From Planctomycetota bacterium (GTDB lineage Bacteria > Planctomycetota > J058 > JAJDCQ01): a stretch of DNA of 64,000 nt. Below, in pieces: positions 5,259 through 11,572 of this stretch. The stretch covers positions 1 to 64,000 of the forward strand of contig JAJDCQ010000005.1 in assembly GCA_029260755.1 (NCBI GenBank), written 5' to 3'. Below the pieces are notes generated by a model that did no database searches, was not told where the DNA came from, and saw only the letters and a list, made by a program, of their open reading frames with translations. The translations under genes and the position numbers were made by a program. The stretch's first letter is position 1. Each line of letters opens with the position of its first letter.

Positions 5259-7361
5259 ATGCACCTTCACCGACCGAACCTCCGCCGCGCCGCCCTCACC
5301 GGCCTCCTCCTCGCCGCGCTCGCCGTCTCCGCGGCGCTCGCGCCTGGCCTTCTCACGCCGTCGATCCGCGCCGACGACGACGAGGACCCCGGCGCCGAGT
5401 CGCCCGCGGCGCCCGACTTCCCCGAAGGGCTGCGCTGGTGGAACACCGGCGAGGCGCTCTCGATGGAGAGGCTCCGCGGTCAGATCGTCCTCCTCGACTT
5501 CTGGACGTTCTGCTGCATCAACTGCATCCACATCCTCGACGAGCTCGAGGTGCTCGAGGAGAAGTATCACGACGACCCGTTCCTCGTCGTCGGCGTCCAC
5601 AGCCCGAAGTTCGAGAACGAGAAGGACCCCGACAACATCCGGGCGGCGCTGCTCCGCTACGGGATCGAGCACCCGGTCCTCGTCGACAGCGAGATGACGC
5701 TCTGGCGGAAGTACGGCGTCCGCTCGTGGCCGACGCTCGTCCTGATCGACGCGAAGGGCCGCGTCCGCGACTGGTGGTCGGGAGAGGGGCACCGCGACGA
5801 GATCGACGCGGCGATCGCGACGCTCATCGCCGAGGGCAAGGCGCAGGGCGTCCTCGCCGACGCGCCGCTGCCGCTCGACCGCGAGGCGATCCCCGCGCCC
5901 GAGAGCGGGATGCTCTTCCCCGGGAAGGTGGCCGTCGATGGCGAGCGGATCTTCGTCGCCGACAGCGGCCACGACCGCATCCTCGTCACCGACGCCGCCG
6001 GCAAGGTCGCCGATGTGATCGGGCGCGGCGTCGCCGGGCTCGGCGACGGGTCGTTCGAGGCGGCGACCTTCCGCGATCCGCAGGGGATGCTCCTCGTCGA
6101 CGGGGGCGAGAAGCTGCTCGTCGCCGACACCGGCAACCACGCGATCCGGAGCGTCGACCTCACGAAACGCACCGTCACCCGGATCGCCGGCACCGGCTCG
6201 ATCGGATCGAAGCGCAAGGGCACCCATCCCGCCCTGACGACCAGCCTCAACTCGCCCTGGGCGCTCGCGGTCGGGCCGGACGGCGACGACCGCGTCTGGA
6301 TCGCGATGGCGGGAACTCACCAGATCTGGACGCTCACCCGGAGCACGGGGCAGGTCGCCCGGTTCAGCGGGAGCGGCCGGGAGCGGTGCACCGATGGGCC
6401 TCACCCGACCGCCGCGTACGCACAGCCCTCGGGGTTCGCGACCGACGGGAAGGTGCTCTTCGTCGCCGACAGCGAGGTGAGCTCGATCCGGTCGGTCGAC
6501 CTCGCCGACGACGGATCGGCCGCGACCGTCTGCGGCAGCGGCGAGCTTTTCGGCTTCGGCGACGTGGACGGCAAGGGCGAGGAGGCCCGGCTCCAGCACC
6601 CGCTCGGGCTGGCGTATCGCGACGGCGTCCTCTACGTGGCCGACACCTACAACCACAAGATCAAGCGAGTCGACCCGAAGACGGGCGCGATCGCGACGTG
6701 GGTGGGCGACGGGTCGCCGGGCTTCAAGGACGGAGACGCCGGCGCGGCGCGCTTCTACCACCCCGGCGGCATCGCCCTCGCCGCCGAAACCCTCTGGGTC
6801 GCCGACACGAACAACCATCAGCTCCGCGCCGTGAGCCTCGCCGACGGCGCGACCCGGACCGTTCCGCTCGACTTCTCCGCCGTCGCCGACCGGGTCGGCC
6901 CGCGCGGCCGGCCGAGGTCGGCGTCGGGGCCGGCGCCGACCGACGCGACGGTACGCACGACCGAGGCCGAGCTCGTCCTAGCGCCGGGCGGCGAGATCGC
7001 GATGAAGATCGAGGCCCGCTTCCCCGACGGCTGGAAGTACAACACTCTCGGCAAGGTCGCATGGCGCGTCCGGAGCGTCGGCGCCCAGGTGCGCCTCGCG
7101 GGCGAAGGCGACCCCTACGAGCGCAGCGGCGAGAGCAAGGCGTTCCCCGTCGAGCTCGCCGTCGTCGCGGCCGACCTCCGGGTCGACCGCCCGGCGCGCC
7201 TCGAGGTGCTGATCGACTATACCTCCTGCCAGAAGGGCGACGAGGCGGTCTGCCTGCCGCGGAGCCGGCTCTTCCGGATCCCGGTGCGGGTCGATCCCGC
7301 CGCCCCCACAGCCGAGGCGGCCCGCGCGCTCGTCGACGAGGTCGCTCCTCCGGGAGACTGA
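5259..7361 (+). CDS. Secreted NHLRC2-like thioredoxin/NHL-repeat protein
   Basis: 700 residues. A signal peptide (about 1-37) is followed by a thioredoxin-like domain (about 55-200) with the CCINC motif (Cys85, Cys86, Cys89) seen in NHLRC2-type proteins. Next comes an NHL beta-propeller (about 220-530) with repeated VADTxNH and LFVADS units, then a C-terminal beta domain (about 555-690) holding a Cys pair in YTSCQKGDEAVCLPRS. That last segment resembles the N-terminal DsbD alpha domain. Together this suggests a periplasmic thiol-disulfide protein with a scaffold propeller. GGAG lies 9 nt before the ATG. The repeat element that follows begins within 2 bp of the stop codon. Confidence 0.88.
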   Translation: MHLHRPNLRRAALTGLLLAALAVSAALAPGLLTPSIRADDDEDPGAESPAAPDFPEGLRWWNTGEALSMERLRGQIVLLDFWTFCCINCIHILDELEVLEEKYHDDPFLVVGVHSPKFENEKDPDNIRAALLRYGIEHPVLVDSEMTLWRKYGVRSWPTLVLIDAKGRVRDWWSGEGHRDEIDAAIATLIAEGKAQGVLADAPLPLDREAIPAPESGMLFPGKVAVDGERIFVADSGHDRILVTDAAGKVADVIGRGVAGLGDGSFEAATFRDPQGMLLVDGGEKLLVADTGNHAIRSVDLTKRTVTRIAGTGSIGSKRKGTHPALTTSLNSPWALAVGPDGDDRVWIAMAGTHQIWTLTRSTGQVARFSGSGRERCTDGPHPTAAYAQPSGFATDGKVLFVADSEVSSIRSVDLADDGSAATVCGSGELFGFGDVDGKGEEARLQHPLGLAYRDGVLYVADTYNHKIKRVDPKTGAIATWVGDGSPGFKDGDAGAARFYHPGGIALAAETLWVADTNNHQLRAVSLADGATRTVPLDFSAVADRVGPRGRPRSASGPAPTDATVRTTEAELVLAPGGEIAMKIEARFPDGWKYNTLGKVAWRVRSVGAQVRLAGEGDPYERSGESKAFPVELAVVAADLRVDRPARLEVLIDYTSCQKGDEAVCLPRSRLFRIPVRVDPAAPTAEAARALVDEVAPPGD

Positions 7362-7718: not shown

Positions 7719-7810
7719 AATGCAGTACGCCAAGGTGTCTGATGGGGGGCGGGTTCGATCCGCTCGATCCGTTCGAACCACTCGGATCCCCTCGAGCCAG
7801 GAGAAGGCGA

Positions 7811-9280
7811 ATGCGAGCTCCGCACCCCACGAAGCGTCTGCCGAGGCTCACGACCGGCCTCGTCGGAGCTGCTGTCGGCGTCCTCGCGAGCGCCGTCCTC
7901 GCGTCCGAAGGGCGCGCCCAGGACGGCGGCTCGGAGCCGCCCGAGCCGATCCCCGTCGAGCTCCACGTCCGGACCGAGTGGGTGACGCTGGACGCCGACC
8001 GCCTCCCGCCGGGCAACCGCTCCGCCCTCGCGGTGAAGCGCTTCGTCGATCCCGCGACCGGGAAGCCCTTCGATGACCGGGCCGACCCCCTCGGCGTCGC
8101 GACGGCCGATCTCGTCCGCGGCTTCCGGCTCGAGAAGACCGAGCTCCTCCTCGGCGAGCCACTCCTCGTCGAGTTCCGCATCGAGGTCACCGGCGAGGGG
8201 ACGTTCCGGGAGCCGGTCGGCGGCGCCTACCGTGGGCTCGGACGCGACGACAACTTCGTCTTCATCCTGCGTCGCAAGGACGACGGGACGTTCGTCCCCG
8301 ATGCCTACGGCGAGCGGATCTTCGGGCACATGGGCGGCATCTCGACCGTCTACGATGTCGAGAGCGGCAAGCCGCGCTCGCACTGGCACGCGGTCGCGCG
8401 CTACGCGCCGCTCGTGGCGCCGGGCGAGTACGAGCTCTTCTGCCTCCAGCACGACCACCGCCACGACGCGCTCGGGCGGCGCGAGGCGCTCATCGCGGGG
8501 CTGCCCGACGCGGTGCGCGCGAAGTACGACCTCGCCCCCGGCACGCAGGATCTGATCGACCGCAAGACCGGCGAGAAGGCGCCGCTCCAGCTCAGCCCGA
8601 GCTGGCGGCAGAAGCCGGCGCCGTCGCCGCTCGCCGCGCTCGTGCCGGCCGAGCTCCGCAAGGAGATCGCGCGCCGCGCCGGGTTCGAGGAGCACCAGGT
8701 CCTCACGCAGCTCGCGGACTACGCCCGGTTCGACATCAGCGTCGTCGCCCCGACCGACGACGAGCAACGCGAGACGATGGTCGACCGCTGGACCGGGATC
8801 GCCGCGCGTCGCCCCGGCTCGTGGCCGAACCCTCGGTCCGAGGCGGCCCGGCAGGCGCTCTTCTTCAGCCGCGGCGAGCTCTTCCTCCCGTGGATCGAGG
8901 GCATCCTCGACGATCCCGACGCGCGGGGCGCGACGCCGCCCCAGGACATCGACGGCCTGGCTCTCAACCCGAGCCCGCGCGCCTTCGACCTCCTCGCCCG
9001 CGCGACCGGCGAAGGGCTCGGCAGCCTCTTCCGCGCGAACGAGGCCCACCGCGAACGCCTGGTGCCGCTGCTGCTGCAGCGGCTCGTCGCGGACGAGGCC
9101 CGCGCGCGCGCGGAGGCGTTCTCTCACCTCGCGCGCATCGCCGAGCGCCGCTTCGACGCCCCGTGGGGAGGCTTCCGGGCGGACCGCCCGACGCCCGAGG
9201 AGGCGGCGGCGATCGCCGAGCGCGCCGCGGCCTGGTGGCGGACGCACGGTCCCGGCGGCGAGGACGGCGACGGCCGCTGA
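7811..9280 (+). CDS. Secreted protein of unknown function
   Basis: 489 residues from ATG 7811. This start is chosen because AGGAG lies 8 nt upstream, a signal peptide follows at once (about 1-35, ending SEGRAQD), and the open frame upstream of it runs through the repeat element. The body has a beta-rich first half (about 45-200) with Tyr/Gly-rich GGAYRGLGRDDNF and HDHRHD segments, and an alpha-helical second half rich in Arg/Ala/Leu that could be a repeat solenoid. I do not recognise the family. It precedes the candidate selenoprotein by 194 bp on the same strand, and both are predicted to be exported. The gap between them holds no clear gene. Confidence 0.7.
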   Translation: MRAPHPTKRLPRLTTGLVGAAVGVLASAVLASEGRAQDGGSEPPEPIPVELHVRTEWVTLDADRLPPGNRSALAVKRFVDPATGKPFDDRADPLGVATADLVRGFRLEKTELLLGEPLLVEFRIEVTGEGTFREPVGGAYRGLGRDDNFVFILRRKDDGTFVPDAYGERIFGHMGGISTVYDVESGKPRSHWHAVARYAPLVAPGEYELFCLQHDHRHDALGRREALIAGLPDAVRAKYDLAPGTQDLIDRKTGEKAPLQLSPSWRQKPAPSPLAALVPAELRKEIARRAGFEEHQVLTQLADYARFDISVVAPTDDEQRETMVDRWTGIAARRPGSWPNPRSEAARQALFFSRGELFLPWIEGILDDPDARGATPPQDIDGLALNPSPRAFDLLARATGEGLGSLFRANEAHRERLVPLLLQRLVADEARARAEAFSHLARIAERRFDAPWGGFRADRPTPEEAAAIAERAAAWWRTHGPGGEDGDGR

Positions 9281-9474: not shown

Positions 9475-11391
9475 ATGTCCGCACGACTCGCTTCGTTCGC
9501 CCTGTTCGGCGCCCTGGCCCTCGGGGCCGCTACCGTGGCCACCGTCCCCGCCGATGCCGGCGAGAGCTGCGGCACCGACTCGCCCTGCTGCAAGAACGCG
9601 ACGATGGGCGAGTGCCCCCGGGAGACGCATCGCTACGGCACCGCCGTCGACTGGTTCGACGACGAGGACCTCGCCCGGGCTCGGGCGGAGAGCGAGAGCA
9701 AGCTTCTGCTCCTCCTCCGGATCTCGGGCGACTTCCACGACCCCGGCAAGACGTGAGCCAACGCCCAGGCGCTCCGGGTCGGAGCGCTCTCCGATGACCT
9801 GAACGGGAGCATCATCGACAGCCACTTCGTCGCCGCCTGGCGGAAGGTCGGCACCTTCGCCCGGATCGAGGCCGAAGGGGGCGGCGTCCAGAAGGTCGGC
9901 GGCAACGTCGCCGCCTACCTCTGCCGGCCCGACGGCGTCGTCCTGAACGCGGTCGCCGGCAACGTGGGCCCCGAGGAGCTCCGAGCGCACCTCCTCTGGA
10001 CGGTCGAGACGTGGTCGAGCGTCCGCGAGGAGGCCGGCGACGATGTCGGTCGCCTCCGCGTCCTCCTCCGGCGAGCCCACGACGAGCGCGGCGCCGAGCT
10101 CGGCCGGACGCGCCGGGGCGGCCCTCGTTCCCGGCAGGTCGCGGCGCTCCTCGCGACCGACCCGCTGGCGCCGGTCGAGGCGATCCATCCGGCCGTCTGG
10201 AAGGGGATCCTGGCCCAGAACTCCTCGACCCTGCCGGTCGTCACCCTCGCCGATGGCGAGATCGGGCCCGGGCTCCAGTGGGAGCTCGAGAAGGCGCTCC
10301 GGTCCGGCCCGGGCGACGAGCTCACCGGCGACGCCGCGTCGGGCGACGGGCTCCGCGAGATGCTCGCGATCCGCGCCCTCGAGCGGGGCGAGGGGCAGGC
10401 CGAGGCCTACGTCTCCGAGCGGCTCCCCGACGCCACGTTCCGGGAGCGGCTCGCGAGAACGCTCGAGCCTCCGGTCCGGCCCGGCATCGGTCGGTTCCTG
10501 GCGGGGTGCCTCGGAGCGGACGCCGAGCTCCGCGAGGCCTGCCTCCGGCCCGATGACCCGCTCTTCGCGACGGCCGTCGCCGCGCTCCTCGACGCGGGCG
10601 AGCGTTCGGCGGATCGAGATGAGCTGCTCGGCCGCCTCCTGCGCGACGACGTCTTCGCGGCCGCGGCCCTGCCGCATCTGCGGCGGACCCACCAGCGGGC
10701 CATCGCGGACCGGGTGGTCGCCGCGCTCTCGAACGACGCCGACGCGGCGCGAGTCGATCGGCTCGCCTCGCTCCCGGCCGAGGCGGTCGCCGGCGCCCTC
10801 GCCGAGGCGCTCGTGACCCTCGAGGCGGTCGACGGCGCGTCCGACCCCGAACGGTCCGAGCGGCTCGCCGCCGCCGCGCGCCGGGCGGCGCTCGCCTCGC
10901 GGGCGCCGGCCATCGAGCATCTGGTGCTCGAGTCGGACGCGCCGCTCGACGCGCTGATCGCCGCCGAGGAGCCCGGCGTCGCCGGCGTCCCGGAGGTGCT
11001 GCGCGTTCTCGCCGGCGGGATCATCGATCGCCGCGCCAGCCGGCGGGCCGAAGCCCTCGAGCGAGCGAGGAGCCTCCGATCCGCGGCGCGCGGCGCGCTC
11101 GCGCGTCGTCTCGTCCCGACGCTCGAGGGGCTCAAGCCGCATCGCCGTCGCCGCCTCGTCGACGCCTTCGCCGAGCTCGCCGACGCATCCTGCCTGCCGA
11201 CCCTGATCGCCGCGCTGCGATGGGACGACGGGCGCTACATGGACGTCGCGCTCGGCGCGATGCGGCGGATCACCGGGCTCTCCTTCGCGGATCCGAGACG
11301 ATCCAAGCGCCTCCGCGACCGGCAGATCCTCGAGATCGAGCGGTGGTGGCTCGAGGAGGGCGTCGACGAGCACGCGGTCTCGTCCCGGTGA
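9475..11391 (+). CDS. Candidate selenoprotein: thioredoxin-like domain plus helical repeats, in-frame TGA read as Sec94
   Basis: A single frame runs from ATG 9475 to TGA 11391 (638 residues) interrupted only by TGA 9754-9756. It has a signal peptide (1-28), a Cys-rich stretch (Cys32, Cys38, Cys39, Cys47), then a thioredoxin-like domain: strand LLLLLRISGDF, TGA, helix ANAQALRVGALSDD, NSHFVA-like and GGNVAAYLCRPDG strands. The protein-like sequence continues without change of frame or composition on both sides of the TGA. The TGA sits where thioredoxin-fold proteins carry the redox Cys. The remaining ~450 residues are Ala/Leu/Arg-rich helical repeats of HEAT type, ending in YMDVALGAMRRITG. A conventional reading would split this into a 93-residue orphan and a start-less 475-residue gene. 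Sec insertion is inferred, not proven. Confidence 0.7.
9769..9787 (+). promoter_or_regulatory. Candidate bacterial SECIS stem-loop
   Basis: GCGCTCC (9769-9775), loop GGGTC (9776-9780) and GGAGCGC (9781-9787) form a perfect 7-bp stem directly after the in-frame TGA. The loop contains GGUC, as in the E. coli fdhF SECIS recognised by SelB. Nineteen nucleotides separate the TGA from the loop, inside the spacing seen for bacterial SECIS elements. Confidence 0.65.
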
Positions 11392-11427
11392 GCCGAGGCC
11401 GAGCGATGAGCCTCTGGTGTGAATCGA

Positions 11428-11515
11428 GGGGTCAGGTCCAGGAATCACACGAGCGAATCTGTCGCAGCAGCTGGTGTGACCTGACCCCTCTGGTGTGAAT
11501 CCTGGACCTGACCCC
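11428..11515. repeat. GGGGTCAGGTC-type REPIN-like inverted repeat
   Basis: This lies between the convergent genes ending at 11391 and 11573. A forward copy (11428-11450) starts GGGGTCAGGTCCAGG and continues to CACAC. It is matched by an inverted copy (11493-11515) with one mismatch, and a third partial copy GTGTGACCTGACCCC sits at 11474-11488. The layout (two REP-like words in opposite orientation, short spacer) resembles REPINs mobilised by RAYT/TnpA-REP transposases. No transposase is in the window. Confidence 0.8.
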
Positions 11516-11572
11516 TGGAATCACGATAGGCGAAGCGAGCCGGGAGGGTCCGATCAGCCTGCGGGATGACGG

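Follow-up and report, generated by a model that had tools for sequence, protein, structure and literature searches.

The gene at 9475–11391 and its in-frame TGA

The window (the whole stretch of DNA that was analysed, 64,000 nucleotides) contains a gene that very probably encodes a selenoprotein. The features of this locus are the following:

9475–11391, + strand: selenoprotein gene with high probability (the window gene; its product is the window protein), 638 residues with selenocysteine (Sec) at codon 94; a single in-frame TGA with homology on both sides
9475–9558, + strand: likely signal peptide, the first 28 residues, from the translation read by eye
9625–10041, + strand: predicted thioredoxin-fold domain, residues 51–189; AlphaFold2 pLDDT 95.7 (69 rows), PDB matches 3f9u, 7tkv and 2lst
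9754–9756, + strand: TGA codon, almost certainly read as selenocysteine (Sec94); in the alignment of 112 distinct loci, TGA in 101 (window gene included) and Cys in 11
9769–9787, + strand: bacterial SECIS-type hairpin with a 7-bp stem and a GGGTC loop, the loop 19 nt after the TGA; covariation in relatives and codon constraint
10345–11367, + strand: predicted C-terminal helical, solenoid-like region; AlphaFold2 mean pLDDT 76.7 (7 rows), weak PDB matches

Re-reading of the sequence confirmed the frame described in the first-pass annotation: it runs uninterrupted from 9475 to 11391 except for one internal stop, the TGA at codon 94. The sequence flanking this codon had been called protein-like, and relatives indeed show homology on either side of it. 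The window protein is probably exported and, since its N-terminus resembles a signal peptide (as judged by eye), the cell envelope is its probable site of action.

Several features border the gene. Two genes upstream (5259–7361), an uninterrupted frame with Cys residues encodes a Thioredoxin_8 and NHL-repeat protein. The stretch directly upstream (7808–9280) is an open frame of 490 residues with no Pfam match at E ≤ 1. Just downstream, at 11419–11524, lies a 35-nt inverted repeat whose arms are 89% complementary and 36 nt apart; the window contains only two copies of its core, GGGTCAGGTCCAGGA.

Recurrence of the TGA among relatives

A search of 58 genomes with the window protein returned a match in six. 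With the window excluded, one aligned TGA was present in two proteins of the source genome and in three loci elsewhere, and a Cys in one locus; the remaining matches were confined to the C-terminal part. A profile search of 392 genomes of the phylum gave a match in 185 of them at E ≤ 0.001. The 90 matches at E ≤ 1e-15 contained either exactly one TGA (79) or no stop (11), and none of these 90 held a TAA or a TAG. With a profile of the window subfamily, 60 loci were recovered from the named genome collection, all from planctomycetes (e.g. Singulisphaera and Isosphaera) and all with TGA at the site (60/60); the search pattern had been written with Cys over the site and would presumably favour Cys forms if anything.

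Duplicates (L024–L027 and L067) were removed, and 112 distinct loci were read. The first-pass annotation had asked whether homologues carry Cys or TGA at position 94, and these were the only two states encountered: TGA in 101 loci, Cys in 11 and no other residue. None of the 64 loci of the window subfamily is a Cys form. A quick tree of the 112 rows placed the Cys rows in one group nested among TGA rows (SH-aLRT 85, not starred). The Cys forms may hence go back to one change from the TGA state; this direction is a reading of the tree and is unproven because the tree was built from few columns and has many open forks.

The source genome itself contains 11 matches to the superfamily, nine of them with one TGA (two of those nine at E about 3e-5), and a TGA in the aligned column was confirmed for seven copies, the window gene included. 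Judged by these alignments, the window gene is not a one-off but belongs to a family that is spread through the phylum and has several paralogues in the source genome.

If the TGA were a true stop or the gene degenerate, a secreted protein of 93 residues would be made and the downstream frame would be a relic. TGA does act as a normal stop in these genes, as it terminates the window gene as well as four out of five further TGA loci that were checked. Against this stand the recurrence of TGA in one and the same column, the conservation of the protein on both sides of it, Cys as the sole alternative and the absence of TAA and TAG among the strong matches, and we consider a true stop very improbable. 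A read error replacing a Cys codon can be dismissed as the source of the TGA, because the same TGA occurs in 50 genomes.

Selenocysteine machinery of the genomes

The source genome (12.26 Mb, completeness 87.7%) was searched for selA, selB, selC and selD as the first-pass annotation had proposed, and all four are present: selA (E 5.7e-162), selB (334.7 bits), a tRNA-Sec (selC, 69.4 bits), for which ARAGORN concurs with the anticodon TCA, and a selD that has one internal TGA of its own (G000:C11:116660-117586).

Among the 392 genomes of the phylum, selA was found in 275 at E ≤ 0.001 and exceeded the cut-off in 238. At the former threshold it was present in 45 of the 50 genomes with a TGA match at E ≤ 1e-15 compared with 230 of the 342 others (p = 0.0008); among these 45, the match in G279 is weak only. 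No selA was found in five genomes with strong TGA matches (G003, G007, G175, G263 and G331), all of them incomplete assemblies with a completeness of 67–91%. Eight of the 11 genomes carrying a Cys form among the matches at E ≤ 1e-15 have selA. For the named loci, the genomes of 30 of the 60 were checked; 29 gave a selA match, which lay over the cut-off in 26.

The hairpin downstream of the TGA

A perfect 7-bp stem begins 12 nt downstream of the TGA, with the arms GCGCTCC (9769–9775) and GGAGCGC (9781–9787) enclosing the loop GGGTC (9776–9780). The adjoining hairpin and the 19 nt between TGA and loop are thus as they had been reported in the first reading of the DNA; we take the element to be comparable to the SECIS of E. 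coli fdhF. Considered alone it is not unusually stable: a stretch of 47 nt folds at −17.5 kcal/mol (z = −0.68), and 48 of 200 shuffled sequences fold as well. The bSECIS model, as quoted in section 5 of a review (PMC13188914), comprises a loop of 3–9 nt, a stem of 4–16 bp, a G in the first two loop positions, a spacing of 16–37 nt and a minimum free energy (MFE) of at most −7.5 kcal/mol; the window hairpin, with 7 bp, GGGTC, 19 nt and −16.3 to −17.5 kcal/mol, agrees with the values quoted there.

The relatives are more informative on the stem. Among 37 loci that share one stem register, 90.1% of the stem cells are paired and five of the six pairs show double-sided changes; the covariation score was reached by none of 500 shuffles, and structures slid along the alignment scored lower. 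In the window subfamily (62 loci, 60 of them distinct) 90.6% of the cells are paired, two of six pairs show double-sided changes and again none of 500 shuffles reached the covariation score, while one stem pair is mismatched in 28 of the 60 distinct rows. This alignment (A5) comprises 62 of the 64 group-A loci; L045 and L141, which have the hairpin in another register, were omitted. The number of pairs with double-sided changes is the less telling measure, as shuffles attain it in 28 of 500 cases for the 37-locus set and in 157 of 500 for the 62-locus set.

Codon choice at positions +5 to +8 was counted in 59 of the 64 loci (L010, L016, L018, L045 and L141 omitted) and compared with the expectation from the usage of each gene. 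GCG was used in 53 of 59 (20.8 expected), CTC for 48 of 48 Leu codons (13.0), CGT in 56 of 59 (9.2) and GTG for 49 of 49 Val codons (19.4). The synonymous constraint in these 59 loci is strongest at the 5' arm and the loop of the hairpin. It is not all due to the hairpin, since codons outside it also depart somewhat from usage: AAC at +1 in 59 of 59 (46.2 expected), and GCG at +3 in seven and at +10 in one (20.8 expected each).

In the Cys forms only 53% of the stem cells are paired. Under a fixed rule, a stem of at least 5 bp was present in 74 of the 101 TGA loci, compared with 38% of synonymous shuffles, and in two of the 11 Cys loci, compared with 33%; this strict rule leaves 27 of the 101 TGA loci without such a stem. 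As the stem is weaker and rarer in the Cys forms, the hairpin appears to be tied to the TGA rather than simply to the protein. Folding energies of 81 TGA loci differed little from those of synonymous shuffles (mean z −0.47; 16 loci below −1.5), which we put down to the differing registers and the mismatches. In other subfamilies (L136, L130, L017 and others) the distance from the TGA to the loop is greater by about 5 nt and the loop is of the GGTC or CGTG type, with a stem that still covaries. On the evidence of these alignments, the putative SECIS-type element shifts between codon registers while its stem covaries.

Some bacterial lineages reassign TGA, and the codon could in principle be read here as Trp or another amino acid of a changed code instead of Sec. 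Several observations speak against it: each of the 11 loci without TGA has Cys in the aligned column, the source genome holds the complete Sec machinery, TGA also terminates the window gene and four other members, and a covarying hairpin follows the internal TGA. We attach next to no weight to this reading. A stop, a pseudogene, a Trp code and a sequencing error were all rejected on the grounds given above. The hairpin stands above chance once relatives are compared: the same column is TGA in paralogues and distant relatives, and the stem covaries. The reading as Sec94 came through the three checks that the first-pass annotation had named as able to refute it: sel genes are present, the homologues read have no third residue at the site and the codon is no artefact of reading. 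Insertion of Sec at codon 94 is hence predicted with very high probability from the comparison of sequences.

The predicted thioredoxin-fold domain and its probable active site

The N-terminal domain was modelled by AlphaFold2 from an alignment (A8) whose 69 rows were all chosen from the 112 loci, and the predicted fold is that of thioredoxin. The first match among PDB structures was 3f9u, followed by a DsbH-domain protein, a Thermus thioredoxin, 3ira, AGR and DsbD-gamma structures, with moderate TM-scores of 0.50–0.63 (best 0.63). Structure prediction and these matches bear out the thioredoxin-like domain that the first-pass annotation had proposed. It had also placed the TGA where such folds carry their redox Cys. 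In the model, Sec is residue 44 and directly precedes helix 45–52, i.e. it occupies the N-terminus of the first active-site helix, and profile alignments, weak ones at E 0.002–0.011 (five shown), pair the Sec column with the active-site Cys of 3ira and of AGR2/AGR3; both agree with that placement. The sequence similarity of the Sec domain to solved proteins is weak, and the redox assignment derives from fold and position.

The surroundings of Sec differ from a CxxC motif. All 101 TGA loci have Ala or Gly at position +3, where the 11 Cys loci have Ser (CANS); a Cys at −3 (CxxU) occurs in four of the 101 TGA loci. Given these two features, the domain likely works through one selenol and relies on a different thiol for resolution. 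Of the 38 members in the other register, 22 have a Cys directly before Sec (CU). In the window subfamily, 58 of 63 members have a Cys within the 24 residues ahead of the domain; sliding stretches of that length further downstream contain a Cys in 58% of cases too, and for this reason the Cys ahead of the domain is a lead only.

Enzymes with a lone Sec are often peroxidases. The protein might accordingly be a selenoprotein of another kind, namely a single-selenol enzyme akin to peroxidases or methionine sulfoxide reductases, or else a protein that binds metal, and not a thiol-disulfide oxidoreductase. Ala or Gly at +3 in every TGA locus and the rarity of CxxU fit such an enzyme. The fold points the other way: the best matches are of the thioredoxin, DsbH, AGR and DsbD-gamma types and the listed peroxiredoxins rank from 33 on with lower TM-scores, though fold rank does not fix the substrate. 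We regard this alternative as the less probable one, but as one of real weight, and favour an oxidoreductase.

The predicted helical C-terminal region

The C-terminal part is all-helical in the AlphaFold2 model, with low confidence before 10345. Matches of this part to armadillo/HEAT-type solenoids in the PDB are weak (best E 0.03, none at E ≤ 0.001), and no Pfam HEAT match was obtained for the window protein. Thus, of the initial description as a thioredoxin-like/HEAT protein, the thioredoxin-like part stands, whereas the HEAT part comes down to an all-helical prediction with weak solenoid matches.

In the 58 genomes, only L016 of the source genome matches the window protein along nearly its whole length; partial similarity to its C-terminal part was seen in five further proteins of that genome and in loci of two other genomes. 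Within the limits of this search, the helical tail does not appear to be a family trait. A C-terminal motif that by eye seemed common to the window protein and shorter members gave no alignment with BLASTP and was discarded.

Proposed mechanism

In the mechanism that we propose, SelB and Sec-tRNA would read the UGA at codon 94 as selenocysteine under the guidance of the downstream hairpin. Sec would then occupy the N-terminus of the first active-site helix, the place of the nucleophilic Cys in thioredoxin-like proteins, and Ala or Gly would stand where a CxxC motif has its second Cys (UxxA/G). Most likely, the domain would be a single-selenol oxidoreductase of the cell envelope; such an envelope redox role is probable. 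Sec would attack a disulfide or an oxidised substrate, giving a mixed selenenylsulfide that another thiol would resolve. The resolving thiol may be the Cys just ahead of the domain in the window subfamily and the Cys directly before Sec (CU) in many members of the other register, both rather doubtful identifications. The helical tail might, in this scheme, bind a partner, a role that we put forward tentatively.

Relation to known families

Neither the window protein nor any other member scanned (23 members against NCBIfam, June 2026, and 10 against Pfam, several as parts) reached the cut-off of a Pfam or NCBIfam model. The closest candidates are catalogued thioredoxin-like selenoproteins, and the family could be a divergent part of the VPGUxxT (NF041382/NF041383) or Trx7/PDZ (NF041199) groups. 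Some members do match these profiles weakly, best with NF041383 (E 0.001), and the VPGUxxT (seleno)proteins are likewise thioredoxin-like; the similarity to the Trx7/PDZ domain-containing (seleno)protein is confined to the domain start (E 0.065–0.29). These scores amount to 10–19 bits compared with cut-offs of 275–350 bits, several other members having been scanned as parts only, which lowers whole-protein scores. The best relative reached 18.8 bits with NF041382/NF041383 (cut-offs 275–350 bits) and 12.1 bits with NF041199 (cut-off 300 bits), and at E ≤ 1 no match was obtained for the window protein, L016, L018, L045 and the longer members L058, L063, L069 and L101. The motifs differ as well: VPGUxxT, to go by its name, contrasts with TUxNA, CUxNA or USAG-like motifs in the window family, and the CxxU that is given for NF041199 in the table of PMC13188914 is rare in it. 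Membership in either group is improbable. Thioredoxin_7 (PF13899, gathering threshold 27 bits) gave 15.5 bits for L011, 15.8 bits for L012 and no match for the window protein.

AGR2/AGR3 and the DsbH/Thioredox_DsbH types share the fold, and the Sec column meets their N-terminal active-site Cys; the AGR proteins have CxxS at the active site, like the Cys forms (CANS) of the window family. The window family differs from both types by Sec in place of Cys in most members read, by UxxA/G and by weak sequence similarity. The UxxC thioredoxin-like selenoproteins listed in Table 1 of PMC13188914 likewise place Sec at the N-terminal position of the active site in a thioredoxin-like domain, but keep a Cys at +3, which none of the 101 TGA loci of the window family does.

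That table, of 2026, comprises 119 prokaryotic selenoprotein families or subfamilies. None of those listed corresponds to the window family by name or motif, names alone leaving an overlap possible, and the word stem planctomyc- is absent from the text of the review (PMC13188914). From the planctomycetes, full sets of Sec genes are recorded for Gemmata obscuriglobus and Isosphaera pallida and selenoprotein candidates for two others (PMC4807772). In the portions of the selenoprotein and planctomycete literature covered (including PMC5029168 and PMC1794560) no description of the window family was found; this coverage is partial, so that an earlier description is possible.

Significance for the planctomycetes

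The window family is a large, apparently uncatalogued group of thioredoxin-like selenoproteins in many planctomycetes. A broader reading, for and against which we are almost evenly inclined, would be that of a phylum-wide superfamily of single-selenol (UxxA/G) envelope proteins with a thioredoxin fold that ordinarily contain Sec, the Cys state having been derived from it a single time; the superfamily may be one of the main reasons that many planctomycetes retain the Sec machinery. In that reading it would have escaped notice because gene finders end a gene at the TGA and homology filters require Cys or an already known Sec homologue. The authors of deep-Sep note that their method may miss selenoproteins without Cys homologues (PMC12013277). 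The finding points to the same blind spot in detection, as methods that depend on a Cys homologue are faced here with a window subfamily that has Cys in 0 of 64 loci. The shift of the loop register with a covarying stem would furthermore provide a useful data set on the recognition of hairpins by SelB. Overall, this looks like a large uncatalogued superfamily of the planctomycetes, with Sec predominating and Cys exceptional in the loci read.
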